Part shown: one piece after another, positions 1,219-30,575 of the stretch | Numbering within the stretch: position 1 is the stretch's first letter | Layout of the letters: each line of letters begins with the position of its first letter | Source: Sinorhizobium meliloti | GTDB taxonomy: Bacteria > Pseudomonadota > Alphaproteobacteria > Rhizobiales > Rhizobiaceae | DNA length: 64,000 nucleotides | Direction: 5' to 3' | Assembly (NCBI RefSeq): GCF_035610345.1 | Contig: NZ_CP141214.1 | Location: 342,230-406,229 of the forward strand | Made by a program: the position numbers and the translations under genes | Notes under the pieces: generated by a model | Database searches by the model: none | What the model saw: only the letters and a program-made list of their open reading frames with translations | Told to the model about the DNA's origin: nothing

Positions 1219-1232
1219 TTGATCAAGCTCAA
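1219..1232. promoter_or_regulatory. FixK/FNR box upstream of the DUF1488-like gene
   Basis: TTGATCAAGCTCAA matches the TTGA-N6-TCAA consensus of FNR/FixK anaeroboxes exactly. It lies 85 nt before the start at 1134. Confidence 0.6.
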
Positions 1233-1268
1233 AGTCGGACCTCCAATCGCGATCCGTTCGAGGCTAAA

Positions 1269-1850
1269 TCAACCGCCCCGTGTGCCGTAATCGTGCATCT
1301 CGTCGAGCCAGCGCGCGCGCTTCTTCTCGTCGGCAAACGAGAGGCCGTAGAAGCTCTCGCGAATGGGTTTGATCCCGGCGAGGCCCAACATGCTGCGCTC
1401 GAAACCTCGAACGCCATACGCGCCGAAATACCACCGGTAAGGAAGCACCGGCATGCCCATGGTGACGATTATGCGGGCGGAGCGCCCGGCAAGCAGCCGT
1501 TTGAGAAAGCCGCGCTTCTTGTATTCCATCGCGAAGCCCGGCCTGAAAATGTGCTCGAGGAAGCCCTTGAGCAGGGCCGGCATCGTTGTATGCCAAAGAG
1601 GAAACAGAAAGACCCAGTGCTCTGCCCAGCGCATGTCCTCCCGCGATTGCTCCAGGCTGGTTGGCAATGTGCCGGTTTCGAAATCTTCCTGGGTCCGCAG
1701 CAGCGGGAACTCGAGCTTGGTCACTTCTATACGCCGCACCTCGTGTCCCGCGGCCGTGGCGGCCTCGGCGTAAGCGTCAGCCATGGCGTGCAGGAGGTGG
1801 TGCCTAGCCGGGTTCGGGTGGACCTGGACAATCGCTATGTGCCTGGTCAT
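1269..1850 (-). CDS. NAD(P)H dehydrogenase (quinone), flavodoxin-like fold
   Basis: The 193-residue product starts MTRHIAIVQVHPNP, the first strand and loop of the KefF/MdaB/NQO1 flavodoxin-like family. It carries the conserved FLFPLWHTTMPALLKGFLEHIF segment in two parts (flavin-facing WxxxMPA and the helix after it) and ends with the C-terminal helix region. The expected reaction is two-electron reduction of quinones with NAD(P)H using bound FMN or FAD. The gene lies 55 nt downstream of the alpha/beta hydrolase on the same strand, separated by a small hairpin, so the two probably share the promoter at about 3000. A longer frame runs upstream, but the family N-terminus fixes this start. Confidence 0.85.
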   Translation of the reverse strand: MTRHIAIVQVHPNPARHHLLHAMADAYAEAATAAGHEVRRIEVTKLEFPLLRTQEDFETGTLPTSLEQSREDMRWAEHWVFLFPLWHTTMPALLKGFLEHIFRPGFAMEYKKRGFLKRLLAGRSARIIVTMGMPVLPYRWYFGAYGVRGFERSMLGLAGIKPIRESFYGLSFADEKKRARWLDEMHDYGTRGG

Positions 1851-1872
1851 CTGCTGCGCTTCGTAAATACCT

Positions 1873-1893
1873 GAGGCACACCTTGCGTGCCTC
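1873..1893 (-). terminator. Intercistronic hairpin
   Basis: A perfect 7-bp inverted repeat, GAGGCAC / GTGCCTC with a 7-nt loop, lies between the hydrolase stop and the quinone reductase start. There is no strong U-run, so it could be an RNA-processing or attenuating hairpin rather than a full terminator. Confidence 0.4.
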
Positions 1894-1905
1894 TTAGCTG
1901 TTCCC

Positions 1906-2949
1906 TCATGACCGCGTCGACGATACCGCGGGTGCGGGCGAATTTGGCCGAACAGGCGTTCGGGCACCAGATCCCGAGGGCTCCATTGTGCCTGTCTGAC
2001 CAAGGAAATCGCTCACGGCCTTCTTGACCTTCTCCCCACGCCCAACGAGCAGATGGCCGCCGGTGTCGTAGACGACCAGCTTCGCGCCCGGAATGCTCCT
2101 GGCCGCGAATGTGGCTGCGGGGAGCGTGTTGAACAGATCATCTTGGGCCGACACGACGAGGGTTGGAGCGGCGATGTTGTCGAGCGGCAGGCGGTGGAGA
2201 TTGGGCGCACTGTCGATGTTTATGCCGGGGAAGCGCTGCGAAAGCGGTTCGACGCTGCGGATAATGGCCGTCACCCGATTTCGATCCGTCGCCGCGGCCG
2301 CTTCAACGACCTCGGGCGGTACGCCGAGGAAGCGCATGAGAACCGACGGAGCCATCTTTTCTGTGGCCCACCATGCGAAATCGGCGCCGGTATTGACCAG
2401 CCAGAAGGCAAATGCGCTGCCGCGACTGCCCTCGACCATCACTGGGCTCTCGGGCGCGTAAGTTCCAGGCACGATCAGAACAAGAGCTGACACCCTATCC
2501 GGATGGCGAAGCGCCAGTTCGATCGCCGAGCGTGCGCCTGCCGAAACGCCGACGACCACGGCTTTGTCGATCTGAAGCTGGGAGAGCAGCACCATATGGG
2601 CATCGGCCTGGGCAGCCGGCGAAGCATCGGCAGGAATCGGCGTTCCCAGATACCCGAAGCGAGACGGGGCGACCACCCGAAAGCCGCTTCCGACCAGATC
2701 GGCAACGTTGGTCAGGCCCTGATCCCATCCGCCACCTGCGCCGTGAATGGACAGGAGCGGAATGCCGTCACCTCTCTCGGCATATTCGATGGGGCCGGCG
2801 GCCGTATTGGCAATGCGCGCGCCATTGGCGACTGCGGAGCGCGCGCGATCGATGTCATTGCTGTAGGACAGGAAAACCATCCCAACTGCGACCGCGATTG
2901 CGATAAAGACCGCTGATAACGTCCATCCGATCCGACCCATGGCCGCCAT
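1906..2949 (-). CDS. Alpha/beta hydrolase with N-terminal membrane anchor
   Basis: About 347 residues. An N-terminal hydrophobic segment (residues 10-30) probably anchors the protein or exports it. The hydrolase domain shows the oxyanion-hole motif HGAGGGWDQG, the nucleophile elbow GVSAG (Ser), an acid residue in SAQDDLFN and a catalytic His in GGHLLVGRG. This is the full Ser-Asp-His set in family order. The substrate cannot be told from sequence. It is the first gene of a likely two-gene unit with the quinone reductase, behind a TTGA-N6-TCAA site about 50 nt upstream. The start could be 2949 or 2940; the longest frame begins with TTG. Confidence 0.8.
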   Translation of the reverse strand: MAAMGRIGWTLSAVFIAIAVAVGMVFLSYSNDIDRARSAVANGARIANTAAGPIEYAERGDGIPLLSIHGAGGGWDQGLTNVADLVGSGFRVVAPSRFGYLGTPIPADASPAAQADAHMVLLSQLQIDKAVVVGVSAGARSAIELALRHPDRVSALVLIVPGTYAPESPVMVEGSRGSAFAFWLVNTGADFAWWATEKMAPSVLMRFLGVPPEVVEAAAATDRNRVTAIIRSVEPLSQRFPGINIDSAPNLHRLPLDNIAAPTLVVSAQDDLFNTLPAATFAARSIPGAKLVVYDTGGHLLVGRGEKVKKAVSDFLGQTGTMEPSGSGARTPVRPNSPAPAVSSTRS

Positions 2950-3000
2950 CCCGGAACTCAATCTTGCAGGGCATCCTAGTTGGGTTGAGCCGCGAGGACT

Positions 3001-3014
3001 TTGATCTGCCTCAA
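3001..3014. promoter_or_regulatory. FixK/FNR box upstream of the hydrolase
   Basis: TTGATCTGCCTCAA is an exact TTGA-N6-TCAA site, 52 nt upstream of the start at 2949, between the Nia ATPase stop and the hydrolase. Confidence 0.65.
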
Positions 3015-3059
3015 ATGGGTCGATGAGATGCTCGGCATCGGGTCGTCTATTCGTTTGGA

Positions 3060-5462
3060 TTACTCGTCCTCGAGCGATCGATAGATTTCCAGCTCCTGCG
3101 CAAAGTGGAGGCGAGTGATAGCTTCGAGACCGTGCAGCAGGCGTTGGATCTCGTAGCGCTGTGCCTGGCTCGGTCCATGTTCGCTAAGCGCTTGTCGAAG
3201 CGAAGTGAAGCTGTGGACCTGACGCTGGATCTCCATGTGAGTTCTGCTCATGCCGGCAAGAGCATCCGGCGTGCCCGCCTGCCTGCGCAGCCTAGGATAG
3301 AGTTCCTCGTCATCCTGCCGTTCGTGCGGAAGAAGGCGTTGTCGCAGCAAGGCGTCCAAATGTGCAAGCTGATCGCGCACTTCCTCTTCCGGGAGCTGCT
3401 GGATGCGAGCGCTCGTATGGCGCATCTCGTCCACGACGTCCATCAGGGCACCATGCTCGGCTTCGAGCTTCAGGAGCTCCGCGTGCGCCAAACGTGTTGT
3501 TTTCCGCCAACCGCGGTTAGGGTTTCCAAGAGCGCGCAGCGCGTTCAAGATGGCGACGACGTCGATTGCTTCCTGCAACAGTGCGCCCTGAACCGGCGTC
3601 AGATAGCCGAAGGCGGCCGCGATCATGCCAGCGGCGGACAAGCCCATACCCATATAGACGCTCTGAAGGGCTATGCCGCGTGAGCGACGCGCGATGCGGA
3701 TGGCGCTGACGAGGCGATCGAGCCGGTCCACCAGGATCACCACGTCGGCCGCTTCGGAGGAGGCGGCAGCCCCGCGCGCGCCCATGGCTACCCCAACGTC
3801 GGCGGCTGCGAGCGCCGGTGCGTCGTTGACGCCATCGCCGACCATCATGACCGGTCCTGCCGATCTTTCCGCTTCGACAATTCGGGTTTTGTCCTCGGGC
3901 TTCAATTCGGCGGCAACACTGTCCAACCCTAGGAAGGCCTGGAGGCTCTCCGCCAGCTCGGTGCGATCCCCGGTCGCAAGCACGATCCGATCGACGCCGG
4001 CATCGCGCAATCGCCTGAGCACGCTGCCGGCCTCCGGCCTGACCTCGTCTGCCAGCAGAAGAGCGCCCGCCAGAATTCCGTCCTTCGCGGCGAGAACCGA
4101 GACGGTGCCATCCCTCCGGATCCACTCCCGGATCTCTCGCGAGAAGGCGGTCTCCTCAATCCTGGCGTTGACGAAATCCCAACCGCCCACTGCGATTTCG
4201 TGACCATCTATGTTGCCGGTCATGCCGGAACCTGCCACTTCAAGTGATCCCGACGGTGCGACAAGTTTCAGTTCCCGCTCGCGGGCGGCTGCGACCAGCG
4301 CGCGGGCGATCACATGGTGTGAGCCCTGATCTAGCGATGCCGCGAGACGCAGCACCTCCAGAGGATCGAGATCCACGCGGGACTTGACCTCGATAAGACG
4401 GGCCCGGCCGTCGGTGATCGTCCCGGTCTTGTCGAGGATCACCGTCTTCATCCGCGCGAGCATCTCGAGAGCGCCTCCGCCCTTTACGAGCACCCCCTTG
4501 CCGGCGCAGCGGGAGACGCCGGAGATGATCGCCACCGGGACCGCGAGAATGAGCGGGCACGGTGTCGCAATGACCAGCACGGCGAGCGCGCGGACCGGTT
4601 CCCCGCTCATGGCCCAGGCGCCGCCGGCGAGGAGCAGCGTGACCGCGAGGAACACCAGCGCGTAGCGGTCGGCAAAACGGACCATCGGCGCCTTCGCGGC
4701 CTTCGCCGCCTCCACCAGCCTGGCGATCGCCGCATAGGTGCTGTCGCTCGCGGAACTTGCGGCGAGCATGTCGAACGCATCGCCGGCGTTCGTCGTGCCG
4801 CTCGTCACGGGCTCGCCGGAGCGGCGGCGGACCGGCAGGGCTTCGCCCGTTAGGGCCGACTCGTCCAGCACGGCGGTTCCATCCAGCACGTTTCCGTCGA
4901 CGGGCACCACCTCGCCACGGCGTATCAGGATGCGGTTGCCAGGATTCAGTTCTTCGATGGAAACCTCCTGCAACTGCCCATCCGCGTAGCGAGCGGCGGT
5001 GCGCGGTACCCGACTGAGCAGCGCCGTCAGTTCCCGGCGTGCGCGCCTTTGAGCGAAATCCTCGAGCGCCTGTCCGCCCGTATACATCAGTGCGACGATG
5101 CTGCCGGTCAGGTATTCGCCGAGAAGAAGGGCACCGCCCATGGCGAGCGCCGCGATGAGGTCCAGCCCGAATTCCTTCCTTCCGAGACTGATCGCGACCT
5201 CGATAAGAAGGCTCGCCAGGATGATCGCGGTTCCGGCAGCCCAGGACGCGGCGCTGAGGTCAGGCCGGTCCGCCAGCCAGGCGGCTGTGCCGGCGAGCAA
5301 GGCTACAGCGATGAGGGCCAGGAGAAGGCGCTTGCCCAGCTCTCCTCCTTGCCAAAACGGCTCGACGACTCGGCTCTTGGTCAAGGTGCTCTCCGACAGA
5401 TCTCGTGAAGAATACTGGATAACAGGATCGTTGCCTTGATCCCGCGCAAAGGCCCAGCCCAT
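3060..5462 (-). CDS. nia: Nia-like P1B-5 metal-exporting ATPase with C-terminal hemerythrin domain
   Basis: The 800-residue product is a P1B ATPase without an N-terminal metal domain. The TM metal site reads TPCP (residues 300-303), the phosphorylation motif DKTGT has Asp344, the actuator TGEALP is at 205-210 and [10 protein letters not shown] is at 542-551. Residues about 660-798 form a hemerythrin-like HHE domain with candidate iron ligands His670, His713, His742, His786 and Glu790. TPCP plus a hemerythrin tail is the P1B-5 arrangement of S. meliloti Nia, reported as a nodule-expressed Fe/Ni exporter. Iron efflux at the inner membrane is therefore the best guess. There is no good ribosome binding site at the ATG; a TTG at residue 27 follows GGAG and may be the real start. 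A perfect inverted repeat lies upstream at 5608. Confidence 0.88.
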   Translation of the reverse strand: MGWAFARDQGNDPVIQYSSRDLSESTLTKSRVVEPFWQGGELGKRLLLALIAVALLAGTAAWLADRPDLSAASWAAGTAIILASLLIEVAISLGRKEFGLDLIAALAMGGALLLGEYLTGSIVALMYTGGQALEDFAQRRARRELTALLSRVPRTAARYADGQLQEVSIEELNPGNRILIRRGEVVPVDGNVLDGTAVLDESALTGEALPVRRRSGEPVTSGTTNAGDAFDMLAASSASDSTYAAIARLVEAAKAAKAPMVRFADRYALVFLAVTLLLAGGAWAMSGEPVRALAVLVIATPCPLILAVPVAIISGVSRCAGKGVLVKGGGALEMLARMKTVILDKTGTITDGRARLIEVKSRVDLDPLEVLRLAASLDQGSHHVIARALVAAARERELKLVAPSGSLEVAGSGMTGNIDGHEIAVGGWDFVNARIEETAFSREIREWIRRDGTVSVLAAKDGILAGALLLADEVRPEAGSVLRRLRDAGVDRIVLATGDRTELAESLQAFLGLDSVAAELKPEDKTRIVEAERSAGPVMMVGDGVNDAPALAAADVGVAMGARGAAASSEAADVVILVDRLDRLVSAIRIARRSRGIALQSVYMGMGLSAAGMIAAAFGYLTPVQGALLQEAIDVVAILNALRALGNPNRGWRKTTRLAHAELLKLEAEHGALMDVVDEMRHTSARIQQLPEEEVRDQLAHLDALLRQRLLPHERQDDEELYPRLRRQAGTPDALAGMSRTHMEIQRQVHSFTSLRQALSEHGPSQAQRYEIQRLLHGLEAITRLHFAQELEIYRSLEDE

Positions 5463-5634: not shown

Positions 5635-5697
5635 CCCCGCTAACGATATCGTTGCGGATATCCTGAAGCACAGCCGTGATCGACGACGGTGCTGAAT

Positions 5698-8385
5698 TCA
5701 CAGTGCGCAAAGGGCGACCGGCTTGCTGCGGACCCGCCATTTGTCGATTTCCACGACCAGGAGGGCAGAAGACGCGGTAACAAGCAGGAGCGCCCATTCG
5801 GAAAATGATATCGGAGAAACTTGTAGCGTTTCCCTGAGGATCGGAATGTACATGGCAGCGATATGAAGGCCCTGAGCCGCTGCGATGGAGAGTAGCAGCA
5901 GCGGGTTGGCGAGAAAGCCGAGCTGGAAGAGGGATTTGCGCTCGGAGCGGCTCGCCAGCGTCTGGAAGTTCTCGAAAAGCACGAACAACAGCAGCAGCAG
6001 ATTGCGGGCTTCGCTCTCGCCATAGCCCTGCGCGAGCAGAATATAGAACATCGCGAAGCCTCCGGCTCCCATGACGAGCGTGGACTGCCATATGCGCCGG
6101 ATCATGAGCTGGTCGAAGATCGGTTCGGACGGCCTGCGTGGCCCGCGGCTAAGCTCATCGCCTTCCGGACTTTCGCCGGCAAGGGCAATGTCCTGAATGC
6201 CATTGGTCACGAGGTTGAGCCAAAGCAACTGCACGGGAAGAAGAGGCATCGGCAAGCCGAGTGGGATTGCCAGTAGGAACAGCAGCAATTCTGCCGCCCC
6301 CGTCGACATCAGCATGAAGATGACCTTGCGGATATTCGCGTAGGCGACCCGGCCCTCGCGGATGCCGCTGACGATCGACGCGAAGTTGTCATCGATGATG
6401 ACGATGTCGGCGCTCTCCTTCGCCACTTCCGTGCCCTTGCGCCCCATCGCCACGCCGATATGCGCGTGCTTCAGCGCCGGCGCGTCATTGACGCCGTCAC
6501 CTGTGACGGCGACGAAGTGCCCGTTGCGGGCGAGCGACAGGACGATCGCCAACTTCTCTGACGGGGCAACGCGCGCATAGATGCGGCCATGGCGGGTTAA
6601 CGCGTCGAGACTTTCCTGCCCATTTTCCTCGGCCCTGCGCACGTCTTCGCCGATGACCACCTGACCTTCGGCGAAGATCAGCCCGGCATGGGAGGCAATT
6701 GCCGCCGCGGTTCGGGGATCGTCGCCGGTGACCATTGCCACGTCCACGCCTGCGGAGTGGCAATCGCGGATGGCTTGCGGCACCTCAGGGCGTACCGGAT
6801 CCTGCATTCCTGCAAGCCCCAGAAAGACGAGGTCGACCAGGAGATGCCGCCCAAAGCCGCCCTCTGTTTTGATTGCCGTCTCGCCCTCCGCAAAGGCAAG
6901 GACTCGTAGCCCGCGCGCGGCCATCTCTTCCTTCTGATGGAGGAGGATATCCCGATCGATCGGCACGGCTCGACCGGCCACGTCCATGCGATCGGCCATA
7001 TCGATCAGGGTTTCCGCAGCACCCTTAACGAAGATGCGAACGCTGTCGCCGTGGCGGTGAAACGAGGCCGCGTATTTGAGGTCCGGCTCGTAGGGGATTC
7101 GGGCGACAAGCGGATAGTCGTTCTCGATAGCCTCCCGCGGCAAGCCCGCCTTGCGGGCGGCCGCGAGCAATGCAATGTCGACCGTATCGCCGACGGCGCT
7201 CCAGCCATTCGCTTCCTTGACCAGCGATCCTTCGTTGGGCAGCGACGCGGCCTTGAACAAGGCAAGGGCACGTTCCCGTGCCTCCGCCGGAGGGGTTCCA
7301 TCGCCCCGAATCGTGCAGGCGTCCAGATCAGCGCCCGTATCGCAGACAATCTCGGTGCCGTCCGGCAGGCGGATATCCGTTACTGTCAGTTCGTTGAGCG
7401 TCAATGTGCCGGTTTTGTCGGTGGCGATCATCGTGCAGGAGCCGAGAGTTTCCACCGCGGGCATTCTGCGCACGATGACGTGCGCTTTCGCCATACGTCG
7501 CATGCTGACTGCCAGCGCGACCGAGATCGCAATCGGCAGGCCTTCAGGGATCGCGCTCACCGCGAGGCCAACGGACATCATAAAGAGCTCGCTCGGCGTC
7601 ATCGCGCGGGCAATCCCCACAACGACGAGAAGAGCGATCGCAACCGCGACGATCCAGGCAATGAATTTGGAGAAGCGTTCCAGCCTGATCATCAAGGGGG
7701 GCTTGGTGATGGACGCCTTGCCGATCTCGGTGGCAATCTTGCCGATCTCGGTTGCTGCTCCAGTCGCCGCGACCACACCCTGTCCGCGGCCGCGCGTGAC
7801 TAGCGTGCCCGCAAAGACCATGGAGCGCCCATCCTTTCCGGAGGCAGCCTCCACAATCGAGCTGGGCTTGTGAACCGGTGCTGATTCTCCCGTCAGGAGG
7901 GATTCGTCGCAAACGAGATCGGTCGCTGAGAGGAGCCGGATATCGGCCGGCACGCGTCCGCCCGCTTCGAGCGCGACCACGTCGCCCGGCACCAACAGTC
8001 GAGCGTCGATTTCCTGCAAGCGTCCGTCGCGGATGACACTCGCCTTCGGTTGTTCCAGTCTGCGCAACGCCAATGCGGCTTTGCCGGCCGTGTGCTCCTG
8101 CAAACACCCGATGATGCCGTTCGCGATAAGAACGATGCTGATGAATAGCGCATCTTTCAGATCGCTCAATAGGAGAGATACCAGTGCCGCGGCCAGCAGA
8201 ATGTAGATCAGCGGGCTGCGGAACTGGCGCAGGAAAGTCATCGCCAGCGAGGAGGCTTGCGGTTCCGGAAGGCTGTTCGAGCCAAAGCGCGTAAGCCGGA
8301 GACGAGCCTCCTCATGGCTAAGTCCCGCACCGCCGACCAGTGAGCCCCCGCGCGAGGCAAGGTCTGGGAGTGCCACGAAGGTCAT
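5698..8385 (-). CDS. P2-type cation-transporting ATPase (PacL/SERCA/MgtA-like)
   Basis: The 895-residue product has the full P2-type layout: an N-terminal cation ATPase domain (about 10-75), actuator TGES (165-168), the TM4 motif PEGLP (280-284), phosphorylation motif DKTGT with Asp323, the hinge [12 protein letters not shown] and about ten membrane helices with a long C-terminal bundle. TM4 PEGLP is typical of the Ca2+/Mg2+/Na+ groups, so the transported ion is not certain. The start lies 14 nt after the BON gene stop, so the two form an operon. They lie behind the shared FixK box at 9141. The stop is 235 nt before nia, on the same strand. Confidence 0.87.
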   Translation of the reverse strand: MTFVALPDLASRGGSLVGGAGLSHEEARLRLTRFGSNSLPEPQASSLAMTFLRQFRSPLIYILLAAALVSLLLSDLKDALFISIVLIANGIIGCLQEHTAGKAALALRRLEQPKASVIRDGRLQEIDARLLVPGDVVALEAGGRVPADIRLLSATDLVCDESLLTGESAPVHKPSSIVEAASGKDGRSMVFAGTLVTRGRGQGVVAATGAATEIGKIATEIGKASITKPPLMIRLERFSKFIAWIVAVAIALLVVVGIARAMTPSELFMMSVGLAVSAIPEGLPIAISVALAVSMRRMAKAHVIVRRMPAVETLGSCTMIATDKTGTLTLNELTVTDIRLPDGTEIVCDTGADLDACTIRGDGTPPAEARERALALFKAASLPNEGSLVKEANGWSAVGDTVDIALLAAARKAGLPREAIENDYPLVARIPYEPDLKYAASFHRHGDSVRIFVKGAAETLIDMADRMDVAGRAVPIDRDILLHQKEEMAARGLRVLAFAEGETAIKTEGGFGRHLLVDLVFLGLAGMQDPVRPEVPQAIRDCHSAGVDVAMVTGDDPRTAAAIASHAGLIFAEGQVVIGEDVRRAEENGQESLDALTRHGRIYARVAPSEKLAIVLSLARNGHFVAVTGDGVNDAPALKHAHIGVAMGRKGTEVAKESADIVIIDDNFASIVSGIREGRVAYANIRKVIFMLMSTGAAELLLFLLAIPLGLPMPLLPVQLLWLNLVTNGIQDIALAGESPEGDELSRGPRRPSEPIFDQLMIRRIWQSTLVMGAGGFAMFYILLAQGYGESEARNLLLLLFVLFENFQTLASRSERKSLFQLGFLANPLLLLSIAAAQGLHIAAMYIPILRETLQVSPISFSEWALLLVTASSALLVVEIDKWRVRSKPVALCAL

Positions 8386-8399: not shown

Positions 8400-9074
8400 T
8401 CAGGTATTGAGCCGGCGTCGGGGTTCTTCGATTTTCAAGTGATCCTCGACAGCCGTGACGCCTCGAGCCGACCAGGCCGCTCGCTCGGCCACTGCTCTCT
8501 CGCGCCGGCTTTGAACCTTCCCACGCAATGTGACATGACTGCCGGATACTTCTACGTCGATGTTTTCGGCCTCTATCTCAGCATTGCGTTTCAGCGCCTC
8601 TCTGATGCCATGCCTGAGGTCGAGCAAATCCATCATGGGACGAATCCTCAGTCGGTTGTCGACACCGGTGATGCCCGTCAAGCGACGCACCAAGCTCTCG
8701 GCCGCATTGCGCTGGAAATAGAAATCGACCGTTCCCTCCAGGGTCACGTAACCGTTTTCAACCTTGACCTGGATGTCCTTGAGCTCGGCAATTGCGGCTC
8801 CCCAGGTGAGAATTTTTACCACGCGGCTGGCGATTTCGTCATCGGCGGTCTTTTTGTTCTCCGGTAGCCGCACTTCGATTTCCTCGGCGATTGCGCGCAC
8901 GCGCTTCACCCGTTGCGCAACCCGTTCCGCAGTGTGTTTTTCCGCAAAGCTGTGAACATGGCCCGTTAAAGTGACAACGCCATCCTCGACCGTTACTCCG
9001 ATGTTCGCGGCGTCTATGCTGGGTTCATATTCGAGCTCATCCAGGATGTCCTGGCGCAGGCGAATGTCGCTCAT
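8400..9074 (-). CDS. Three-BON-domain protein
   Basis: The 224-residue product contains three consecutive BON domains (about 5-70, 77-145 and 150-218). Each has the helix - DGVVTLTGHV-like strand pair - helix - VDNRLRI-like strand pattern. There is no signal peptide, so it is probably cytosolic. BON domains are thought to bind membranes or other macromolecules; the real role is unknown. The start follows AAGGAGA at good spacing. A FixK box lies 67 nt upstream, shared with the divergent flavin-binding gene. The operon partner is the P2-type ATPase. Confidence 0.85.
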   Translation of the reverse strand: MSDIRLRQDILDELEYEPSIDAANIGVTVEDGVVTLTGHVHSFAEKHTAERVAQRVKRVRAIAEEIEVRLPENKKTADDEIASRVVKILTWGAAIAELKDIQVKVENGYVTLEGTVDFYFQRNAAESLVRRLTGITGVDNRLRIRPMMDLLDLRHGIREALKRNAEIEAENIDVEVSGSHVTLRGKVQSRRERAVAERAAWSARGVTAVEDHLKIEEPRRRLNT

Positions 9075-9140: not shown

Positions 9141-9154
9141 TTGAGGGACATCAA
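9141..9154. promoter_or_regulatory. FixK/FNR box between divergent BON and flavin-binding genes
   Basis: TTGAGGGACATCAA fits TTGA-N6-TCAA. It lies 67 nt from the BON start and 65 nt from the flavin-binding start, almost central, so one dimer site could serve both directions. Confidence 0.65.
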
Positions 9155-9218: not shown

Positions 9219-9674
9219 ATGTTCATCAAGGAAATGTCCCGTCACGAATGCAGCAGCGTCATTCAGGCCGGTCGTCTGGCTCGTCTTGCTTGCTGTAACG
9301 AAGGCAGGCCGTATGTCGTGCCAATCACTTATGCATTTACGGGCAACTGCATTTACTGCTTTTCTATGCCCGGCCAGAAGATCGACTGGATGCGCGCCAA
9401 CCCGCATGTATGCCTTCAAGTCGATGAGTTTTCAGGCGAACGGCAGTGGAAAAGCGTCCTTGTATTCGGCCGCTATCAGGAGCTGCCGCCGGAAGGGCGA
9501 TGGCAGAGAGAGTGCGTGCATGCCTGGTCGCTTCTCGAGGCGCGACCAAATTGGTGGGAACCGGGCGGGCTGAAGCCCGCACCACAAGCGATCGCAGGCT
9601 CTTCGCCGCATGTCTTTTTCTGTGTCGATATCGAAGACATGACCGGCCGTGCTGCACACGAAGGTGAAGCATGA
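9219..9674 (+). CDS. Pyridoxamine 5'-phosphate oxidase-like flavin-binding protein
   Basis: The 151-residue product has the split-barrel FMN-binding fold: an N-terminal helix, the strand GRLARLACCNEGRPYVVP, then YCFSMPGQKIDWMRANPHVCLQVDE, the pattern of the pyridoxamine oxidase-related 'flavin-nucleotide-binding' group. The real start at 9219 follows AGGGAGGGGAG. Such proteins are often found beside universal stress and BON genes in low-oxygen regulons; the substrate is unknown. It is followed by a strong hairpin and the convergent stress-protein gene. Confidence 0.8.
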   Translation: MFIKEMSRHECSSVIQAGRLARLACCNEGRPYVVPITYAFTGNCIYCFSMPGQKIDWMRANPHVCLQVDEFSGERQWKSVLVFGRYQELPPEGRWQRECVHAWSLLEARPNWWEPGGLKPAPQAIAGSSPHVFFCVDIEDMTGRAAHEGEA

Positions 9675-9682
9675 CGGCAAAC

Positions 9683-9734: not shown

Positions 9735-10568
9735 TCAGCGCACCATCAGGACCGGTACCATAGGTGCTTCAATCATCGCCTTGGTAACGCCGCCGAATAT
9801 CCTTTCGCGAAGACGTGTATGCCCGTATGCGCCCATCACGATCAGATCGGCAGAGGTATCAATGGCATGCTGGTTGAGAACCTCGTCGACACGGCGACCG
9901 GCGCTCGGGAGGCGATCGACGGTCACTTCGATGCCATGGCGAGCGAGATAGGTGGCAACATCAGCACCCGGTTCTTCGCCGTTTTTGGCCGAAGCTGCGC
10001 TTGGATCAACCACCACGACATTCACCTCCTCGGCGCTCTCCATCAGTTCCAATGCTTCGCGGGCTGCTCTCGCGGATTCCATGCTCGAGTTCCATGCGAG
10101 GAGAATCTTTCTTGGACGCAGTGTAACGGATTGGCGATTGGTTGCGAGCAGAACGGGTCGCGCCGAATAGAAGAGTGCTCCGTCAATGGCTCGCGCTCGC
10201 AACGGAGAATCCGGCTTCAGGCTCGCCCCGATCAATGTAATGTCGGCATAGCGTGCGCGATTGCCCACATCGCTGTCGGCCCATGCGGTCTCGCAATAGA
10301 TGCCATTTGCCTCGAATGAGATCCCAAGGACCTTCAGCGTCGCCCTAGCCCTCTCCACCGCCCCGTCCAGGTGCTGTACATCGTCGGTCCGTTCGTCGAG
10401 CCAGGCGACCGACATGGCCGCATAATCTCCGATTGGTGGTGGTGCAGCGAGCTTGACCAGAAGAACTGATAAATGCGCATCGGCGGCCGCGCAGAGATCC
10501 GCTGCCGCTGTTAGATCATTTTCGTGCTCATTGGCGCCGATCACCAAAAGAATTGTCTTGTAGGTCAT
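9735..10568 (-). CDS. Universal stress protein, two USP domains
   Basis: The 277-residue product starts MTYKTILLVIGANE and contains two USP domains in tandem. The second ends with the nucleotide-binding pattern VMGAYGHTRLRERIFGGV. The start at 10568 follows GAGGAG. It is a paralogue of the next gene (10766-11587), sharing the same starting motif and the RHGI-VTVDRLPSA segment. A FixK box lies 66 nt upstream. Stress proteins of this type are induced on low oxygen or growth arrest in many bacteria; the molecular role here is unknown. Confidence 0.87.
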   Translation of the reverse strand: MTYKTILLVIGANEHENDLTAAADLCAAADAHLSVLLVKLAAPPPIGDYAAMSVAWLDERTDDVQHLDGAVERARATLKVLGISFEANGIYCETAWADSDVGNRARYADITLIGASLKPDSPLRARAIDGALFYSARPVLLATNRQSVTLRPRKILLAWNSSMESARAAREALELMESAEEVNVVVVDPSAASAKNGEEPGADVATYLARHGIEVTVDRLPSAGRRVDEVLNQHAIDTSADLIVMGAYGHTRLRERIFGGVTKAMIEAPMVPVLMVR

Positions 10569-10633: not shown

Positions 10634-10647
10634 TTGATCGCCGTCAA
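10634..10647. promoter_or_regulatory. FixK/FNR box upstream of the first USP gene
   Basis: TTGATCGCCGTCAA is an exact TTGA-N6-TCAA site, 66 nt before the start at 10568. Confidence 0.7.
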
Positions 10648-11652: not shown

Positions 11653-11666
11653 TTGATGCCGGTCAA
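11653..11666. promoter_or_regulatory. FixK/FNR box upstream of the second USP gene
   Basis: TTGATGCCGGTCAA is an exact TTGA-N6-TCAA site, 66 nt before the start at 11587. It overlaps the last codons of the acetyl-CoA synthetase gene. Confidence 0.7.
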
Positions 11667-14424: not shown

Positions 14425-14438
14425 TTGATCGCGCTCAA
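14425..14438. promoter_or_regulatory. FixK/FNR box upstream of the acetate-CoA ligase/GNAT gene
   Basis: TTGATCGCGCTCAA is an exact TTGA-N6-TCAA site, 63 nt before the start at 14362, between it and the end of the sensor kinase gene. Confidence 0.7.
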
Positions 14439-16071: not shown

Positions 16072-16106
16072 ATAGCGGTTCCTCTCTCCATTCGGCTCGG
16101 CGGGCT

Positions 16107-16946: not shown

Positions 16947-16962
16947 TGTAACAAAGTGTGAC
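16947..16962 (-). promoter_or_regulatory. K-box-like direct repeat upstream of fixK
   Basis: On the minus strand the site reads GTCACA-CTTT-GTTACA, a 6-bp direct repeat with a 4-nt spacer. It closely matches the K-box (GTTACA-N4-GTTACA, recalled from the R. etli fixK promoter) bound by FxkR. It lies 91 nt before the fixK start, the usual place for an OmpR-type activator. Confidence 0.65.
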
Positions 16963-18379: not shown

Positions 18380-18393
18380 TTGATGCTCATCAA
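18380..18393. promoter_or_regulatory. Fully symmetric FixK/FNR box between GNAT-like and OTC-like genes
   Basis: TTGATGCTCATCAA fits the stricter TTGAT-N4-ATCAA form. It lies 91 nt before the carbamoyltransferase homologue and 143 nt before the GNAT-like start. Confidence 0.65.
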
Positions 18394-20504: not shown

Positions 20505-20525
20505 GGATCAAAGCATCTTTGATCC
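20505..20525. promoter_or_regulatory. Perfect inverted repeat overlapping a FixK box
   Basis: GGATCAAAG / CTTTGATCC form 9-bp perfect arms around CAT. The right arm overlaps the first half of the FixK box at 20519, so a protein or hairpin here could compete with FixK binding. Confidence 0.45.
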
Positions 20526-20532
20526 GCATCAA
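20519..20532. promoter_or_regulatory. FixK/FNR box upstream of the beta-CASP nuclease
   Basis: TTGATCCGCATCAA fits TTGA-N6-TCAA (also TTGAT-N4-ATCAA), 64 nt before the start at 20596. Confidence 0.7.
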
Positions 20533-22316: not shown

Positions 22317-22330
22317 TTGATGCGCGTCAA
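22317..22330. promoter_or_regulatory. FixK/FNR box upstream of the HtrA protease
   Basis: TTGATGCGCGTCAA is an exact TTGA-N6-TCAA site, 56 nt before the start at 22386. Confidence 0.7.
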
Positions 22331-22385: not shown

Positions 22386-23714
22386 ATGCTCAAGATCTCG
22401 AGGCTGCTGGTTTTAGCTGCTCTTTTCGATGCCTTCGGGGGGACCGCCGAAGCGACTGGCATCGGCGCGGATGTGTCCGAGATATTAGAGCGGGTGCAAC
22501 CGGCGGTCGTCAGCATCCGAACCGTCAGCAGTGGGATCTTCAGAAGCGAGCTGCTCGAAGATCCGAATGTACGTAAGGTCCTCGGTCTTCCCGATGAGGT
22601 ATTCATCGTTCAAACGGGAGCGATCGCGACAGGGTCCGGCGTGATTATCGATCCGGAGGGCGGCTACATCGTTACCAGCCGCCACCTGGTTGCCGATGCC
22701 GACGATGTTTCCGTGACACTCTCGGATGGACGGATTTTCCAGGCCGATCGGGTAGGGGAGGATGCGCCGACCGACCTCGCCGTGGTTAAGATCGATGCCT
22801 CAAAACTCGCTGCGCTCAAGTGGGGAAATTCATCCGAACTAAAGGTCGGTGATTTTGTGGCCGCGGTAGGCAGTCCTTTCGGGCTGACGCAGACGGCGAC
22901 CTTCGGCATCGTTAGCGGCTTGGGCCGCTCGGGCCTGGGTGCCGATGAATATCAGGATTACATCCAGACCGACGCGGCCATCAATCCAGGGAATTCCGGC
23001 GGAGCGCTCGTCAATGTCTCTGGCGAGTTGATTGGCATCGCCCGCGGGATCGCCGCGCCAGATCAAGCGAGTACCGGCATTGGCTTTGCGATTCCGTCGA
23101 ATATTGGGGCGCAGATCGTCCGCGAATTGATCGCCCACGGAGAATACAAGCGTGGCTGGCTCGGCCTTTCGGTAACGGCCGCCAGGGATGCGCAAGACGG
23201 GAGTGCCACTCAGGCGGAAGCGCTTATCGTGAACGAGCTCGCCTGCAATTCGCCGTCGGAGCTCCAAGGCGTACGCCTTGGAGATGTGATCATGGCCCTG
23301 GACGGCCGCACCTTCCCGACGGAGGCAGCCTTCAGGAATGCGATCAGCCTGCTTCCAGCGAACGCCCGCATCACACTCGATATCCGTCGGGGAGAAGCGT
23401 CGCAGAAGCTGAACGTGACGCTCTCAGATTCGGCCGCTGCTCGCGACGCCTCTGACCAAGGCTCAGTCGTCGTTGCCTTTCCATCCGCGAGCGGCTCACT
23501 CGCATGCGCGCCGTCGGGCGCGGTCCTCATCGATGTTGCGCCGCGTAGCACCGCCTATTCTATCGGGCTGAGAACGGGCGACTACCTGACGGCCATCAAC
23601 GGCAAACCACCCGTCTCAGCAGACCAAATTGGAAGCGTCCTGGAGAGTGTGGAAGGCAGCGCTTCTATCGATATCCTGCGCGCAGGAACCGCATACCGCA
23701 TCGATGTTCAATAG
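22386..23714 (+). CDS. HtrA/DegP-like periplasmic serine protease with two PDZ domains
   Basis: The 442-residue product has a signal peptide (about 1-23) and a trypsin-like domain with a full triad, His100 (TSRHLV), Asp130 (PTDLAVVK) and Ser204 (NPGNSGGALVN). Two PDZ domains follow (about 250-345 and 365-442). This is the DegP/DegQ/DegS family; the role is periplasmic protein quality control. The histidine motif SRHLV differs from the usual TNNHV but keeps the catalytic residue. Placement behind a FixK box suggests envelope stress care in low oxygen. Confidence 0.87.
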   Translation: MLKISRLLVLAALFDAFGGTAEATGIGADVSEILERVQPAVVSIRTVSSGIFRSELLEDPNVRKVLGLPDEVFIVQTGAIATGSGVIIDPEGGYIVTSRHLVADADDVSVTLSDGRIFQADRVGEDAPTDLAVVKIDASKLAALKWGNSSELKVGDFVAAVGSPFGLTQTATFGIVSGLGRSGLGADEYQDYIQTDAAINPGNSGGALVNVSGELIGIARGIAAPDQASTGIGFAIPSNIGAQIVRELIAHGEYKRGWLGLSVTAARDAQDGSATQAEALIVNELACNSPSELQGVRLGDVIMALDGRTFPTEAAFRNAISLLPANARITLDIRRGEASQKLNVTLSDSAAARDASDQGSVVVAFPSASGSLACAPSGAVLIDVAPRSTAYSIGLRTGDYLTAINGKPPVSADQIGSVLESVEGSASIDILRAGTAYRIDVQ

Positions 23715-23912: not shown

Positions 23913-23920
23913 GGGGGTGG

Positions 23921-24798: not shown

Positions 24799-24998
24799 GT
24801 GATATCGTCGGTTTTTGCGCGGTGGTCCCCGTGCCGATGACCGCCATGCCCATGGAAGAGGTGCATCATCGGGCACGCGAGCAGCAGCAGGTACGGAGCG
24901 AGCCCAAGTGCATGCCGCCAGTGCTCACGGAGAATGAAGAACGCGACGATCACCGTGAGCGAGGCGGCGAAGAGCGTCCACTTGCGGTCCCAAATCAT
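24795..24998 (-). CDS. DUF2933-like small membrane protein
   Basis: The 67-residue product has two hydrophobic segments (about 8-24 and 31-45) followed by a His-rich tail ([14 protein letters not shown]). This is the typical layout of DUF2933 proteins found next to heavy-metal ATPases. A role in binding or passing metal at the inner membrane is inferred only from the His tail and context. Both ends overlap neighbours by 4 nt (ATPase upstream, SRPBCC downstream), indicating translational coupling. Confidence 0.7.
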
Positions 24999-27196
24999 AT
25001 CCGTGTACTCCTCAACCTGAGCGAATTGCCGATCACGCTGACCGACGAGAGCGCCATGGCTGCCGCTGCGATGATCGGCGACAGCAAGAGTCCGAATGCG
25101 GGGTAGAGCACGCCAGCCGCAACCGGGACGCCAGCGGCGTTGTAGATGAAGGCGAAGAAAAGGTTTTGCCGAATGTTTCTCATCGTGGCGTGACTGAGCT
25201 GCCGTGCCCGCACGATGCCCTGAAGGTCGCCCTTGAGAAGGGTGACGCCGGCGCTCTCGATTGCCACATCCGTCCCTGTTCCCATGGCGATGCCGACGTC
25301 GGCGGCGGCGAGGGCCGGGGCATCGTTCACGCCGTCTCCCGCCATGGCGACGATGCGACCCTCGTTTCTCAGACGTCTGACGATTTCGCTCTTGTGCTCC
25401 GGCAGGATTTCCGCCTCAACCTCCGTGATGCTGAGCTTGCGAGCGACGGCAGTGGCCGTGGTCCTGTTGTCACCCGTAAGCATCACCACGCGAACGCCGT
25501 CCTTCATCAGTGCCGCGACGGCGGCGGGTGTCGTTGGCTTTATCGGATCGGAGATCGCGAACAAGCCACCGACTCTGCCGTCTATGGCGACGAAGATGAC
25601 GGTCGCTCCTTCTTCCCGCAGTGCTTCCGCCTTTTCGGTGAGCGGGGCTATGTCCACCTTCTCCTCGGACATGATTTGGTGGCTTCCGATAACAAGCCTG
25701 TGTCCCTTGACCGTACCCGTGACGCCTTTGCCCACCGGGCTGTCGAAGTTCTCTGCCGTTCCGAGACCCAGCCCGCGCTCATTGGCGGCCTCGACGATTG
25801 CCGCCGCGAGCGGATGCTCGCTCGCCCGCTCCAGCGTGGCAGCGACCTGCAGGAGTTCGTCCTCGGCTATCCCGTTCACAGCGACGACCGATGTGACTTT
25901 CGGTTTGCCCTCGGTCAGAGTCCCGGTCTTGTCGACCACAAGCGTGTTGACCTTTTCGAAGCGTTCGAGCGCCTCGGCGTTCTTGATCAGCACACCGACG
26001 CTTGCACCCTTGCCGACGCCGACCATGATCGACATCGGAGTGGCGAGGCCGAGCGCACAGGGGCAGGCGATGATCAGCACCGCCACTGCGGCGACAAGTC
26101 CATGGGTGAAGCGAGGTTCCGGCCCAACAGCCATCCACGTGGCGAACGCGACGATAGCGATCAGAATAACAGCGGGCACGAACCAACCGGAGACCTCATC
26201 GGCCAGCCGCTGGATCGGAGCGCGCGAGCGCTGGGCTTCCGCCACCATCTGCACTATCCGCGACAGCATGGTGTCGCGTCCCACCTTGCCGGCTTCCATG
26301 ACGAAACCGCCCGTCTTGTTCATCGTCCCGCCGATAAGGTTCTCACCGAGCGCCTTGGTGACGGGCATGGATTCTCCGGTGATCATCGATTCGTCGACCG
26401 AGCTGCGGCCTTCGACGAGCGTCCCGTCGACCGGGACCTTTTCGCCCGGCCGCACGCGCAGCCGATCGCCGACGGCAACGGCTTCGAGCGGCACGTCTTC
26501 GTCGGTCCCGTCGTTCCGGATACGGCGGGCCGTCTTCGGGGCGAGATCCAAAAGCGCGCGGATCGCTCCGCCCGTCTGCTCGCGAGCACGCAGTTCCAGA
26601 ACCTGCCCGACCAGGACGAGTACGGTGATGACCGCTGCGGCCTCGAAATAGATTGGGACCGCTCCGTCGACCGATCGGAACGTCGTCGGGAACAGTCCGG
26701 GCGCTAGCGTCGCGATCACGCTGTAAACCCAGGCCACGCCCGTGCCCATTGCGATCAGCGTGAACATGTTGAGATGCCTGGTGATGATCGACCGCCAAGC
26801 CCGTTTGAAGAACGGGGCGCCGGCCCACAGAACAACGGGGGTCGCGAAGACGAGCTGCAGCCAGTTTGATGTCTGGGGGTCGAGGAGCATATGCAGGTCG
26901 ACCAGGTGGCCGCCCATCTCCAATAACAAGACCGGTACCGTCAGAGCGAGTCCGATCCAGAACCTCCGCCGCATGTCAACGAGTTCGGGGCTTGGCCCGG
27001 TTCCGGCGGTCACTACTTCCGGCTCGAGCGACATACCGCAGATCGGGCAGTTGCCCGGACCGATCTGCCGCACCTGTGGATGCATCGGGCATGTGTAGAT
27101 CGCGCCTTCCACCAGCGTGACTCGCGAACTCTCCGCTTTTGCGGGCGGGGCGCCCACACTTGTTCGACTATGGTGATGGCTCGGATCGATTCCCAT
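24995..27196 (-). CDS. P1B-1-type Cu(I)-exporting ATPase with N-terminal YHS-like metal domain
   Basis: The 733-residue product starts with a His-rich stretch and a heavy-metal-binding domain, YTCPMHP (Cys36) plus CPICGM (Cys50, Cys53), instead of the usual HMA domain. The membrane site CPC in [12 protein letters not shown] marks Cu+ transport; TGES, DKTGT, HP ([10 protein letters not shown]) and [10 protein letters not shown] are all present. It is distinct from the CueR-controlled copA at 45248. It lies behind a FixK box with a close 34-nt spacing to the start and leads an operon with DUF2933 and SRPBCC genes. Such FixK-linked ATPases may supply copper for cytochrome oxidase maturation rather than detoxification, which is an inference. 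Confidence 0.88.
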
Positions 27197-27229
27197 CGCG
27201 GCATCTTATGCATCTCAGCAGTCAATTCT

Positions 27230-27243
27230 TTGACCAACATCAA
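27230..27243. promoter_or_regulatory. FixK/FNR box between divergent Cu-ATPase and CBS genes
   Basis: TTGACCAACATCAA fits TTGA-N6-TCAA. It lies 34 nt from the ATPase start and 55 nt from the CBS start. Confidence 0.6.
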
Positions 27244-27297
27244 TGTCCTGCTTAACGTTGCGGGGTATGCTGCGCGCTCTAATCGGAGGGCTGTAGG

Positions 27298-27954
27298 ATG
27301 CTTGCCAGAGACGTTATGAAGAAAGAGGTGCTGTCGATAAGTCCCGATCACAGCGTGAGTCATGCCGCGCGCACGATGCTTGAGAACCATATAAGCGGCC
27401 TGCCTGTATGCGACGACCGCGGCAGGCTCGTCGGCATATTATCGGAGGGCGACTTGATGCGGCGTGCGGAGCTGGGATCGGTTTCTTGGCGCGACATCGC
27501 AGGCGTCCGAACGAAACCGGAGTCGTTCATCAAGGGGCATAGCTGGCGCGTGGGCGACGTGATGACGCAGCCTGCTGTCACGGTTGATGAAGACATGCCC
27601 GTTGGCGCCGTCGCCGAACTCATGGCTGCCAAAGGTATCAAGCGCATTCCGGTCATGCGAGCGGAAGAGATGGTGGGCATCATCAGTCGCAGCGACATCC
27701 TTTGCGCGATTGCTGCCTCTGTGCCTGATATGGTTGCTAACGGTGATGAGGCAGTGCGGCGGGCCGTCTTGGCGCGGCTTTGTTCCGATCTCGGGGTTGA
27801 GAAAGGGGCCATCGAAGTGACTATTGAGAATGGAACCGTCAGCTTGTCAGGCCAGGTTGAAAGCGAGGCACTGCGGGAGGCGGCTCGCGTCGCCGCCGAG
27901 ACGATCAGCGGCGCCGGAGGCGTCAGAAACAAACTGCGTGTTGTTGCCACCTGA
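27298..27954 (+). CDS. CBS-pair protein with C-terminal BON domain
   Basis: The 218-residue product has two CBS domains (about 1-60 and 78-140) with typical MxxxVxxxxPDxSVxxAxxxM patterns and a BON domain (about 150-216: IEVTIENGTVSLSGQV). CBS pairs bind adenine nucleotides, so it may sense energy state. The start follows CGGAGGG. It is divergent from the Cu-ATPase operon and lies 214 nt upstream of phosphoketolase. No separate box was found for phosphoketolase, so read-through from this gene is possible. Confidence 0.85.
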   Translation: MLARDVMKKEVLSISPDHSVSHAARTMLENHISGLPVCDDRGRLVGILSEGDLMRRAELGSVSWRDIAGVRTKPESFIKGHSWRVGDVMTQPAVTVDEDMPVGAVAELMAAKGIKRIPVMRAEEMVGIISRSDILCAIAASVPDMVANGDEAVRRAVLARLCSDLGVEKGAIEVTIENGTVSLSGQVESEALREAARVAAETISGAGGVRNKLRVVAT

Positions 27955-28168
27955 GCCCCTGCTGATGGGGGGAATAAATGTTCTCGTTTCATCTTCGGCG
28001 TTTCCCCGGTGATCAGCAATTCTGCGATCGCAAGGGCCCGTGCGCACTGCGTTGGCCGACTCCATAATTCAGCCGCCGAAGTCGGCGCAGAGGTTCGCGT
28101 CATCGCGCCGACGGACAAGCCATCGTCGCAGAATAGTCAACGATCTCTCAATTGGAAGGGTCCTCCCG

Positions 28169-30538
28169 ATGACCGGTACGCTGTCGCCCGAACTTTTGGA
28201 GCGGATGGACGCCTATTGGCGAGCCGCCAACTACCTATCCGTGGGGCAAATCTATCTTCGCGACAATCCACTTGTGAAGGAAAAGCTTACTCTCGCACAT
28301 GTAAAGCCGCGCCTGCTTGGTCACTGGGGCACGACTCCGGGGCTGAACTTTCTCTATGTCCACCTCAATCGGCTGATCCGGGCACATGACCTGTACATGA
28401 TCTATGTCACCGGTCCGGGTCACGGCGGCCCCGGTCTTGTCGCGAATACGTATTTGGAAGGTACTTATTCAGAACTCTACCCCGAAGTCAGCCAGGACAA
28501 GGCCGGGATCAAGAGGCTTTTCAAGCAATTCTCCTATCCAGGCGGGATACCGAGCCACGTCGCGGCAGAGGTGCCGGGTTCGATAAACGAAGGCGGCGAG
28601 CTTGGCTATTGCCTGATGCATGCCTATGGCGCAGTCTTTGACAACCCCGGACTCATCGCGGCCTGCGTCGTGGGAGACGGGGAGGCCGAGACGGGCGCGC
28701 TCGCGACGAGTTGGCACTCCAACAAGTTTCTCAATCCGGCACGAGACGGAGCGGTCCTGCCAATCCTGCATCTCAACGGCTACAAGATCGCAAATCCGAC
28801 GGTGCTTGCTCGCATCAGCCACGACGAGCTGGAGGCGCTGTTCAGGGGTTACGGCTACGAGCCGCTTTTCGTCGAGGGCGCGGATCCGCGACAAATGCAC
28901 CAGCTTATGGCGTCAGCGCTCGACAAGGCCCACGGGAAGATTGCCGAAATCCAGCGGCAAGCGCGCAGTAAAGGATTTTCCGGCCGCCCTGCCTGGCCGA
29001 TGATCATCTTCCGCTCACCGAAAGGTTGGACGGGGCCGCGCGAGGTTGACGGCAAGAAAACGGAGGGCACCTGGCGCTCGCACCAAGTGCCGCTTGCGAA
29101 GCTTGCGGAAGTGCCGGAGCACCTCGGAATTCTCGAAGAGTGGCTCAAGAGTTATCGCCCTGCGGAGCTGTTCGATGAGAGTGGCAGCCTTCGACCTGAG
29201 CTTAGGGAGCTTGCGCCGAAGGGTGAACGCCGCATGGGAGCAAACCCGTATGCTAACGGCGGACTTCTCCTGAAAGACCTCAACCTGCCGGACTTCCGTC
29301 AATACGCGGTGAAGATCGGCACTCCGGGAACCGTGACGGTAGAATCGACCCGCGTCGCGGGTCTGTTTCTCCGCGATGTCATGAAATTCAATGCGGAAGA
29401 GCGCAACTTCCGGATCTTCGGACCGGATGAGACCGAATCAAACCGGCTGTCACCCGTCTTCGAAGAAACAGAACGCGTCTTCACCGGCGAGATTCTCGCT
29501 AGCGACACGCAGCTATCTCCCGACGGCCGGGTCATGGAAGTGCTCAGTGAGCAACTCTGCCAGGGCTGGCTCGAGGGTTACCTGCTGACAGGGCGACATG
29601 GCTTCTTCTCTTGCTATGAGGCCTTCATCCATATCGTCGATTCAATGTTCAACCAGCATGCAAAATGGTTGAAAGTCTGCCGGGAGATTCCTTGGCGCAA
29701 ATCCATCGCGTCTCTCACCTACCTACTGACCTCTCATGTATGGCGTCAGGACCACAACGGCTTCTCGCATCAGGATCCAGGCTTCATCGACCACGTGGCC
29801 AACAAGAAGGCCGACATCATCCGCGTTTACCTTCCACCGGATGCAAATACGCTTCTCTCGGTCGTCGATCATTGCGTGCGGAGCCGTGACTGCATTAACG
29901 TGATCGTCGCAGGCAAACAGCCGCAGTTGCAGTGGTTGGACATGGACGCGGCGGTTGCGCACTGCCGCGTCGGGCTCGGTGTCTGGGAGTGGGCATCCAA
30001 TGATGAAGGCGCTCCCGATGCGGTCGTCGCCTGCGCCGGCGATGTGCCGACCATGGAAGCACTGGCCGCCGTCATGATCCTGCGCGAGGCATTTCCAACG
30101 CTCAGGCTGCGCGTCGTCAACGTCGTCGATCTCATGGCGCTGCAGGCCCCCAGCCAGCATCCCCATGGCGTGGCGGATGACTTCTTCGACCGGATGTTCA
30201 CAACCGACAAGCCTGTCATCTTCGCCTATCACGGCTATCCTGCGCTCATTCACCGGCTGACCTACCGCCGCACCAACCACGCCAACTTTCATGTCCATGG
30301 CTATCAGGAGGAAGGGACGACCACGACGCCGTTCGATATGACCGTGCTCAATGGACTCGATCGGTTCCATCTTGCCAAGGCGGTGGTCGAGCGTGTCCCT
30401 TCGCTCGCCGCGGCGCGGGAAGAATTCGCCTGTGCCATCGAGGGCAAGCTCTCGGAGCACCACGTCCACATCCGCAAGAATGGTGAAGATTTGCCGGAGA
30501 TCAGGAACTGGCGATGGCGGACATCCGACGCGTCGTGA
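28169..30538 (+). CDS. xfp: Phosphoketolase (Xfp)
   Basis: The 789-residue product carries the Xfp signatures [14 protein letters not shown] and the thiamine diphosphate motif VGDGEAETG with the downstream N. It cleaves xylulose 5-phosphate and/or fructose 6-phosphate with phosphate into acetyl phosphate and a sugar phosphate. The start at 28169 follows GGAAGGG at slightly long spacing; a longer upstream frame is not conserved. No acetate kinase or phosphotransacetylase gene lies in the window, so acetyl phosphate must be used elsewhere or via the ligase at 11663. Confidence 0.92.
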
Positions 30539-30561
30539 CGACGGCAATCAAGCGGCCGAGT

Positions 30562-30575
30562 TTGATCTGCGTCAA
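30562..30575. promoter_or_regulatory. FixK/FNR box upstream of the Spy-like gene
   Basis: TTGATCTGCGTCAA is an exact TTGA-N6-TCAA site, 64 nt before the start at 30639. Confidence 0.7.

Follow-up and report, generated by a model that had tools for sequence, protein, structure and literature searches.

The left half of a 64-kb window of Sinorhizobium plasmid DNA holds eleven exact FixK/FNR boxes (TTGA-N6-TCAA) in promoter regions. It is likely to be a FixK/FNR-box island with its own hFixL-FxkR-FixK relay, the boxes of which would also be read by the FixK of a nearby FixLJ system. The window, by which we mean the whole stretch analysed, is C3:342230-406229 of a 6.63-Mb, four-contig (C1-C4) genome of the Sinorhizobium group. 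C3, which carries it, is a 997-kb Sinorhizobium plasmid, and an island of micro-oxic and stress genes takes up the first 31 kb of the window. The FixLJ-FixK regulon is known from S. meliloti pSymA. The system is of an ordinary kind, FixK control of genes on a plasmid of symbiotic type, with an unusually clear anatomy. An original prediction had described the boxes as one compact oxygen-limitation regulon with a fixK-like gene at 16107 in its middle, and it named that gene only; the hFixL/FxkR relay around it and a K-box-like site are added here.

Results

Eleven boxes are specific in half-site and spacer

An exact search of the window for TTGA-N6-TCAA returned 11 matches, every one at its predicted position and all within 1219-30575, and none in 31-64 kb. 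In 100 dinucleotide shuffles the mean was 0.82 (standard deviation 1.05, maximum 5) and 11 was never reached. When each of the 256 tetramers was paired with its reverse complement across N6 in 1-31 kb, TTGA came top with 11 and the runner-up had 6; among tetramers with a single G/C, the 63 apart from TTGA averaged 0.13 and never exceeded 1. For TTGA/TCAA, spacers from N2 to N12 gave 11 matches at N6, one each at N3 and N5, and none at the rest. The genome holds 93 exact sites in total (29 on C1, 20 on C2, 39 on C3 and 5 on C4), and the rate outside the window (82 sites in 6.56 Mb) leads to an expectation of 0.37 in 1219-30575 (Poisson P ~3e-13). The eleven sites also agree internally: T5 or A10 plus G/C at 6 and 9 is found in 11/11, and T5 or A10 in 46 of the 82 exact sites outside the window. 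Sites with one mismatch number 16 in the left half and 9 in the right, with the internal pattern kept in 7 versus 1. Equal sites are therefore not as frequent in 31-64 kb or inside genes as in the promoters of the island. A position matrix built from the 11 sites was dropped as the only proof because it is circular; controls and conservation were used instead.

The right-half genes are chiefly concerned with copper and other metal handling and sulfur transport, together with a chromate transporter and a DNA ligase. At 57841-58404 lies a PhoX phosphatase fragment that covers only profile positions 320-499 of 515 and resembles a remnant.

A -10-like hexamer is most frequent 22 nucleotides past the boxes

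Thirteen gene ends face the eleven boxes. From the end of the box to the likely ATG we measured 66, 64, 65, 65, 62, 63 and 63 nucleotides at seven of them, so that the predicted range of 63-67 was nearly right and is corrected to 62-66. The other six lie at 55, 54, 84, 51 and ~90 nucleotides (75 with a GTG start) and, for a copper-type ATPase gene whose start is unsettled, at 33 with the longest open reading frame. Across the 13 gene ends, matches to TATAAT peak 22 nucleotides past the box (mean 2.69 of 6 positions versus 1.37 overall), a height attained in 10 of 20000 random rolls, and the best match within 21-24 nucleotides of the box has a mean of 3.92, whereas the highest of 40 control bins gives 3.23. 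In nine related loci, where each box was read in both directions (228 sides), a -10-like peak likewise falls at 22-23 nucleotides. At sites 9141 and 27230 the peak is present on both sides, and these look like divergent promoters. Class II activators bind operators centred ~-41 or -41.5 from the transcription start; the -10-like peak 22 nucleotides past the box would therefore put the box centre near -41, in the class II position, if the start is placed from that peak.

The boxes are conserved in Sinorhizobium

Conservation was counted in seven of 34 matching plasmid records, from S. meliloti RCAM1750, 1021 and GR4, S. medicae T10 (accessory plasmid) and ml42 (pSymA), and S. fredii GR64 and CCBAU 45436; seven further records were taken for relay genes and boxes only. 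Each promoter pair needed an orthologue with 60% identity near the gene start, and boxes were sought from 180 nucleotides upstream to 30 nucleotides into the gene. The S. meliloti 1021 stretch stops short of the genes that sites 1219 and 3001 face; these were scored as having no orthologue there. The exact box is kept in 59 of 64 orthologous promoters, or in 57 of 62 without two double counts, a single universal stress protein gene in L029 and in L032 (S. medicae ml42 pSymA) entering twice each. Identity to the window is 95% at the eight fixed positions, 77% in N6 and 62% in the 40-nucleotide flanks. The island is also present on accessory plasmids.

Altogether, the specificity for TTGA and N6, the promoter geometry and the conservation indicate that this is a real FixK/FNR-type regulon, in line with the original prediction. 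On sequence grounds its oxygen-limitation character is also favoured by the recognition helix of the FixK encoded within it.

A candidate oxygen relay is encoded within the island

Midway along the series of boxes, the fixK-like gene at 16107 indeed encodes a FixK, and it stands contiguous with genes for a hybrid histidine kinase and a response regulator (Table 1). The PAS domain of the kinase, aligned to the B. japonicum FixL structure, keeps both the His and the Arg of the heme pocket, which we take, from their roles in B. japonicum FixL, to be the proximal His and distal Arg that hold heme and gate oxygen. With a FixL heme PAS and a C-terminal receiver, the kinase appears to fit the hFixL type.

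The FixK has an E-x-x-S-R recognition helix (ETVSR), as has the FixK beside fixLJ. It has a single Cys, at position 17, and lacks the N-terminal cysteine cluster of FNR proper, so it was rejected as an Fe-S oxygen sensor of that type. Its best sequence match in PDB is B. japonicum FixK2 (4i2o, E 2.4e-26), with the recognition helix kept. Chain position 183 of FixK2, presumably the redox-sensitive Cys of the native protein, aligns with a Thr in the window FixK, and because of this replacement a redox brake of the FixK2 type is probably absent. The response regulator gene was recognised via S. meliloti annotation; its product carries Trans_reg_C, and a FixJ-type (LuxR/GerE) assignment was rejected.

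Between fixK and the regulator gene, before fixK, lies a K-box-like putative FxkR site, GTCACACTTTGTTACA, with one mismatch to the K-box consensus of the R. etli relay. A search of 297 genomes of the family gave 23 hFixL matches in 21 of them, and the surroundings of 10 hand-picked matches from 10 genomes were compared; the other 13 matches, the window's own included, lie outside this comparison. In these 10 loci the K-box is exact in 8 and has one mismatch in 2, always before the adjacent fixK. It is this position before fixK, together with conservation in relatives, that supports the K-box-like site as a candidate. An earlier view of it as the only one in the genome was dropped: that pattern had allowed the window's own variant, and any single mismatch gives four.

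The closest known counterpart is on R. etli CFN42 p42f, where orthologues of the kinase (65% identical over 97%), FxkR (69% over 94%) and FixK (42%) are all present, with an exact K-box before fixK; in R. etli these proteins form the hFixL-FxkR-FixK relay. The arrangement differs. In R. etli, fixK-hfixL stand beside fixNOQP-GHIS and fxkR is ~20 kb away, whereas in the window the three relay genes are contiguous within a stress and energy island and a separate fixL-fixJ pair lies on the same replicon.

The relay genes vary among strains

S. meliloti 1021 pSymA shares boxes and island genes with the window, and differs from it in that fxkR is frameshifted. In 1021 and USDA1106 the gene has 740 instead of 741 bases and meets a stop at codon 85, and strain 2011 has the same shortened length. 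The shortened form occurs in 3 of 22 Sinorhizobium plasmid records with a high-similarity gene, and other strains include in-frame copies. S. meliloti RCAM1750, for one, keeps the three relay genes open, and its K-box is exact. Because of the frameshift in the pSymA copy, the second relay of S. meliloti 1021 is probably not working.

On four S. medicae megaplasmids (three pSymA, one pEmT2b), the island keeps boxes and fxkR (ml42 has 15 boxes over 48 kb, the other three have 9 over 18 kb) and holds no hFixL; of fixK there is a remnant only, residues 37-80 (L032, ml42 pSymA, 23483-23614). A loss of hFixL and fixK was first assumed and is withdrawn: a DNA search located hFixL elsewhere on all four records, and in the two examined, ml42 (L086 6879-17039) and T2 (L087), it stands 36 kb away from the island, accompanied by a near-full FixK and an exact K-box. 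In ml42 and T2 this displaced pair has as neighbours a kinase fragment and another FixK-like gene, for which there is a separate exact K-box. Decay was also rejected as the reading of the two-mismatch K-box in the S. medicae island, since the identical variant occurs in S. meliloti GR4, where fixK is full-length. Because the S. medicae hFixL-fixK pair stands apart from the island, the relay genes can evidently part and yet persist, as in R. etli.

The number of boxes near the relay varied as well. Among the ten family loci, five have 9-15 boxes per 40 kb (G138, of the same genus, G071, G287, G270 and G128).

Boxes and FixK proteins continue along the replicon

The series of boxes, predicted to span 1219-30575, includes all sites in the window and continues to its left, with exact boxes at C3:301658, 303666 (inside a fixL-like gene), 307906, 311568, 316160 and 340591. 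This part of the replicon encodes a fixL-like kinase, an adjacent GerE-type FixJ-like regulator, a second FixK, two copies of ccoN/fixN, fixG, fixI, nosZ and a nosR-like gene that scores below its curated cut-off (fixO, fixQ, fixP, fixH and fixS being outside the family search). Exact boxes precede the first fixN, fixG and other left-hand genes, and because of these the regulon is larger than the window stretch. In the nosZ/nosR-like region (C3:330220-341512), the box at 340591 lies between the nosR-like and rubrerythrin-like genes.

The second FixK, beside fixL-fixJ and ~50 kb left, has the helix DIADYLGLTIETVSR, near-identical to that of the window FixK, and both proteins should therefore read the same boxes. 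A third FixK-like protein (C3:843746-844351) has the ETVSR helix of the window FixK; a loose group of boxes lies near its gene, at C3:820455-847380. With two further FixK-type proteins of the same helix on the replicon, the window fixK need not be the sole reader. The prediction of one compact regulon holds only in part.

Genes of the island

The genes that the boxes face are listed in Table 1. Site 1219 serves the short unknown gene that starts at 1134 (ATG), perhaps together with the cytochrome c gene that follows; assignment to a flavodoxin gene was rejected. The cation P-type ATPase gene behind the BON gene is perhaps on the same transcript from site 9141, as is perhaps the phosphoketolase gene with the CBS-BON gene from site 27230. 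Several left-half genes have no box of their own and would be reached only as downstream operon members, and within 400 nucleotides upstream of hfixL, fixK and fxkR no FixK box was present in the Sinorhizobium loci examined. The hemerythrin-domain P-type ATPase is presumably a relative of the nodule-expressed Nia ATPase of S. meliloti. The ornithine-carbamoyltransferase-like gene (18484-19506) occupies the corresponding place in 4 of 7 relatives, and its product may be catabolic. The DegP-like protease gene of S. meliloti RU11/001 plasmid c (L083 26523-28082) has been annotated in three pieces.

Table 1. Boxes, relay genes and other features of the island, with two variant fxkR genes. Positions are those of the window unless a record is named; fractions give loci with the exact box among loci with the gene.
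Feature	Position (strand)	Context or domains	Exact box kept
FixK/FNR box	1219..1232	before unknown gene 844-1134(-), cytochrome c 465-782(-) behind	6/6
FixK/FNR box	3001..3014	before alpha/beta hydrolase 1906-2949(-)	5/5
FixK/FNR box	9141..9154	between divergent BON-domain gene 8400-9074(-) and pyridoxamine-phosphate-oxidase-like gene 9219-9674(+)	7/7 (BON side)
FixK/FNR box	10634..10647	before universal stress protein gene 9735-10568(-) (USP1)	4/7, least conserved
FixK/FNR box	11653..11666	before second universal stress protein gene 10766-11587(-)	7/7, two of them (L029, L032) a single gene shared with site 10634
FixK/FNR box	14425..14438	before acyl-CoA-ligase/GNAT fusion gene 11663-14362(-)	6/7
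FixK/FNR box	18380..18393	before ornithine-carbamoyltransferase-like gene, start ~18484(+)	4/4, N6 varied
FixK/FNR box	20519..20532	before MBL/beta-CASP RNase-like gene 20596-22191(+)	6/7
FixK/FNR box	22317..22330	before DegP-like protease gene 22386-23714(+)	7/7
FixK/FNR box	27230..27243	between divergent copper-type P-ATPase gene 24995-27196(-) and CBS-BON gene 27298-27954(+)	4/4 (CBS side)
FixK/FNR box	30562..30575	before LTXXQ/Spy-like gene 30639-31271(+)	3/3
hFixL-type hybrid histidine kinase	14503-16110(-)	FixL-like heme PAS, HisKA, HATPase, C-terminal receiver	
FixK, CRP/FNR family	16107-16856(-)	recognition helix ETVSR; overlaps kinase gene by 4 nucleotides	
K-box-like putative FxkR site GTCACACTTTGTTACA	16947..16962(-)	between fixK and regulator gene, before fixK	
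FxkR-type response regulator	17001-17747(+)	receiver and OmpR-type Trans_reg_C; divergent from fixK	
P-type ATPase with C-terminal hemerythrin domain	3060-5462(-)	in island, without own exact box	
Cation P-type ATPase	5698-8385(-)	behind BON gene	
Phosphoketolase	28040-30538(+)	behind CBS-BON gene	
Frameshifted fxkR, S. meliloti 1021 pSymA	L028 18797-19536 of reverse complement		
Frameshifted fxkR, USDA1106	L080 7818-8557		

Discussion

We propose that low oxygen acts on the island through FixK, which would switch on its genes via the eleven operators ~41 nucleotides before the transcription start. Upstream of this step, the heme PAS of hFixL would lose oxygen and the kinase would pass phosphate to FxkR; FxkR would then bind the K-box and turn on the fixK-hfixL transcript, and the resulting FixK, lacking an Fe-S cysteine motif, would bind the boxes. 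The FixK of fixL-fixJ, ~50 kb left, probably reads the same boxes, which would give the regulon two oxygen inputs in this genome.

Several observations weigh against this model. The window proteins score poorly with the NCBIfam models (275.7 of an 850-bit cut-off for FixL, 144.2 of 300 for FixK), and because these scores fall below the curated cut-offs the naming relies on domain content, sequence alignment and orthology. The K-box match by itself proves little, since four places in the genome lie within one mismatch and three do so with the reversed-pattern control; at up to three mismatches the window is at chance level (13 versus 12.2), and the best K-box has two mismatches in S. fredii CCBAU 45436 and S. 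meliloti GR4. Three S. meliloti strains (1021, 2011 and USDA1106) carry the shortened fxkR, and in S. medicae relay and island lie apart. Nor are relay and box-rich island always linked, as 0-2 boxes lie near the relay in the other five of the ten family loci (0-1 per 40 kb in G047, G259, G224 and G084; 2 in G178, beside fix genes). Among the boxes themselves, three of the seven loci lack that of USP1, and one of the seven, S. fredii GR64, lacks those of the acyl-CoA-ligase and MBL genes.

The most serious alternative is that the FixK of the FixLJ relay is the main or only reader of the boxes, in which case the hFixL-FxkR-FixK genes of Sinorhizobium would be a passenger or a duplicate that is fading. 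The fxkR that is one base short in 3 of 22 records, the near-identity of the recognition helices in both FixK proteins, and the presence next to fixL and fixJ of fix genes that carry these boxes would all be expected if this were so. The source genome, however, which also has fixL, fixJ, fixK, fixN, fixG and fixI, keeps all three relay genes open, and the best kinase matches in same-genus genomes are 79-91% identical (G202 only partial). Moreover, hFixL is kept, though moved, in 4 of 4 S. medicae megaplasmid records, and in the two examined it is joined by fixK and an exact K-box. Because the pair was moved and not lost, we lowered this alternative from doubtful to rather unlikely.

Boxes of this type could also serve another CRP/FNR regulator, for instance one that responds to nitric oxide or nitrogen oxides and is tied to the nos genes, given that nosZ, the nosR-like gene and the box at C3:340591 are directly left of the window and that the third ETVSR-helix protein is encoded at C3:843746. 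The island, however, is made up of energy and stress genes rather than denitrification genes, a FixK gene lies within it and the internal bases of its boxes are uniform, so that we regard such a regulator as very improbable. Chance or base composition, which does explain some exact matches elsewhere, since C3:303666 sits in the fixL-like coding sequence, has practically no standing for the island, being refuted by the shuffles, the half-site and spacer controls, the -10 peak and the conservation.

A FixK/FNR-box island with its own relay and a shared FixLJ-side input thus remains our preferred explanation. It yields a catalogue of eleven promoter regions, their operators mostly conserved, that would belong to a programme for micro-oxic survival encoded by symbiotic and accessory plasmids. 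More tentatively, and as a possibility that we would not yet favour, two independent oxygen sensors, FixL-FixJ and hFixL-FxkR, may act on the island regulon in wild Sinorhizobium through two FixK proteins that share one set of boxes. Strains 1021 and 2011 would then be natural mutants of the second relay: that relay is intact in some Sinorhizobium strains, and its regulator gene is shortened in these reference strains. If this two-sensor reading is true, the hFixL-FxkR input would have escaped notice, or been given too little weight, in the model organism, and this raises the question of whether the relay widens the range of oxygen to which the cell responds, or serves free-living low-oxygen life as against FixL-FixJ in the nodule.

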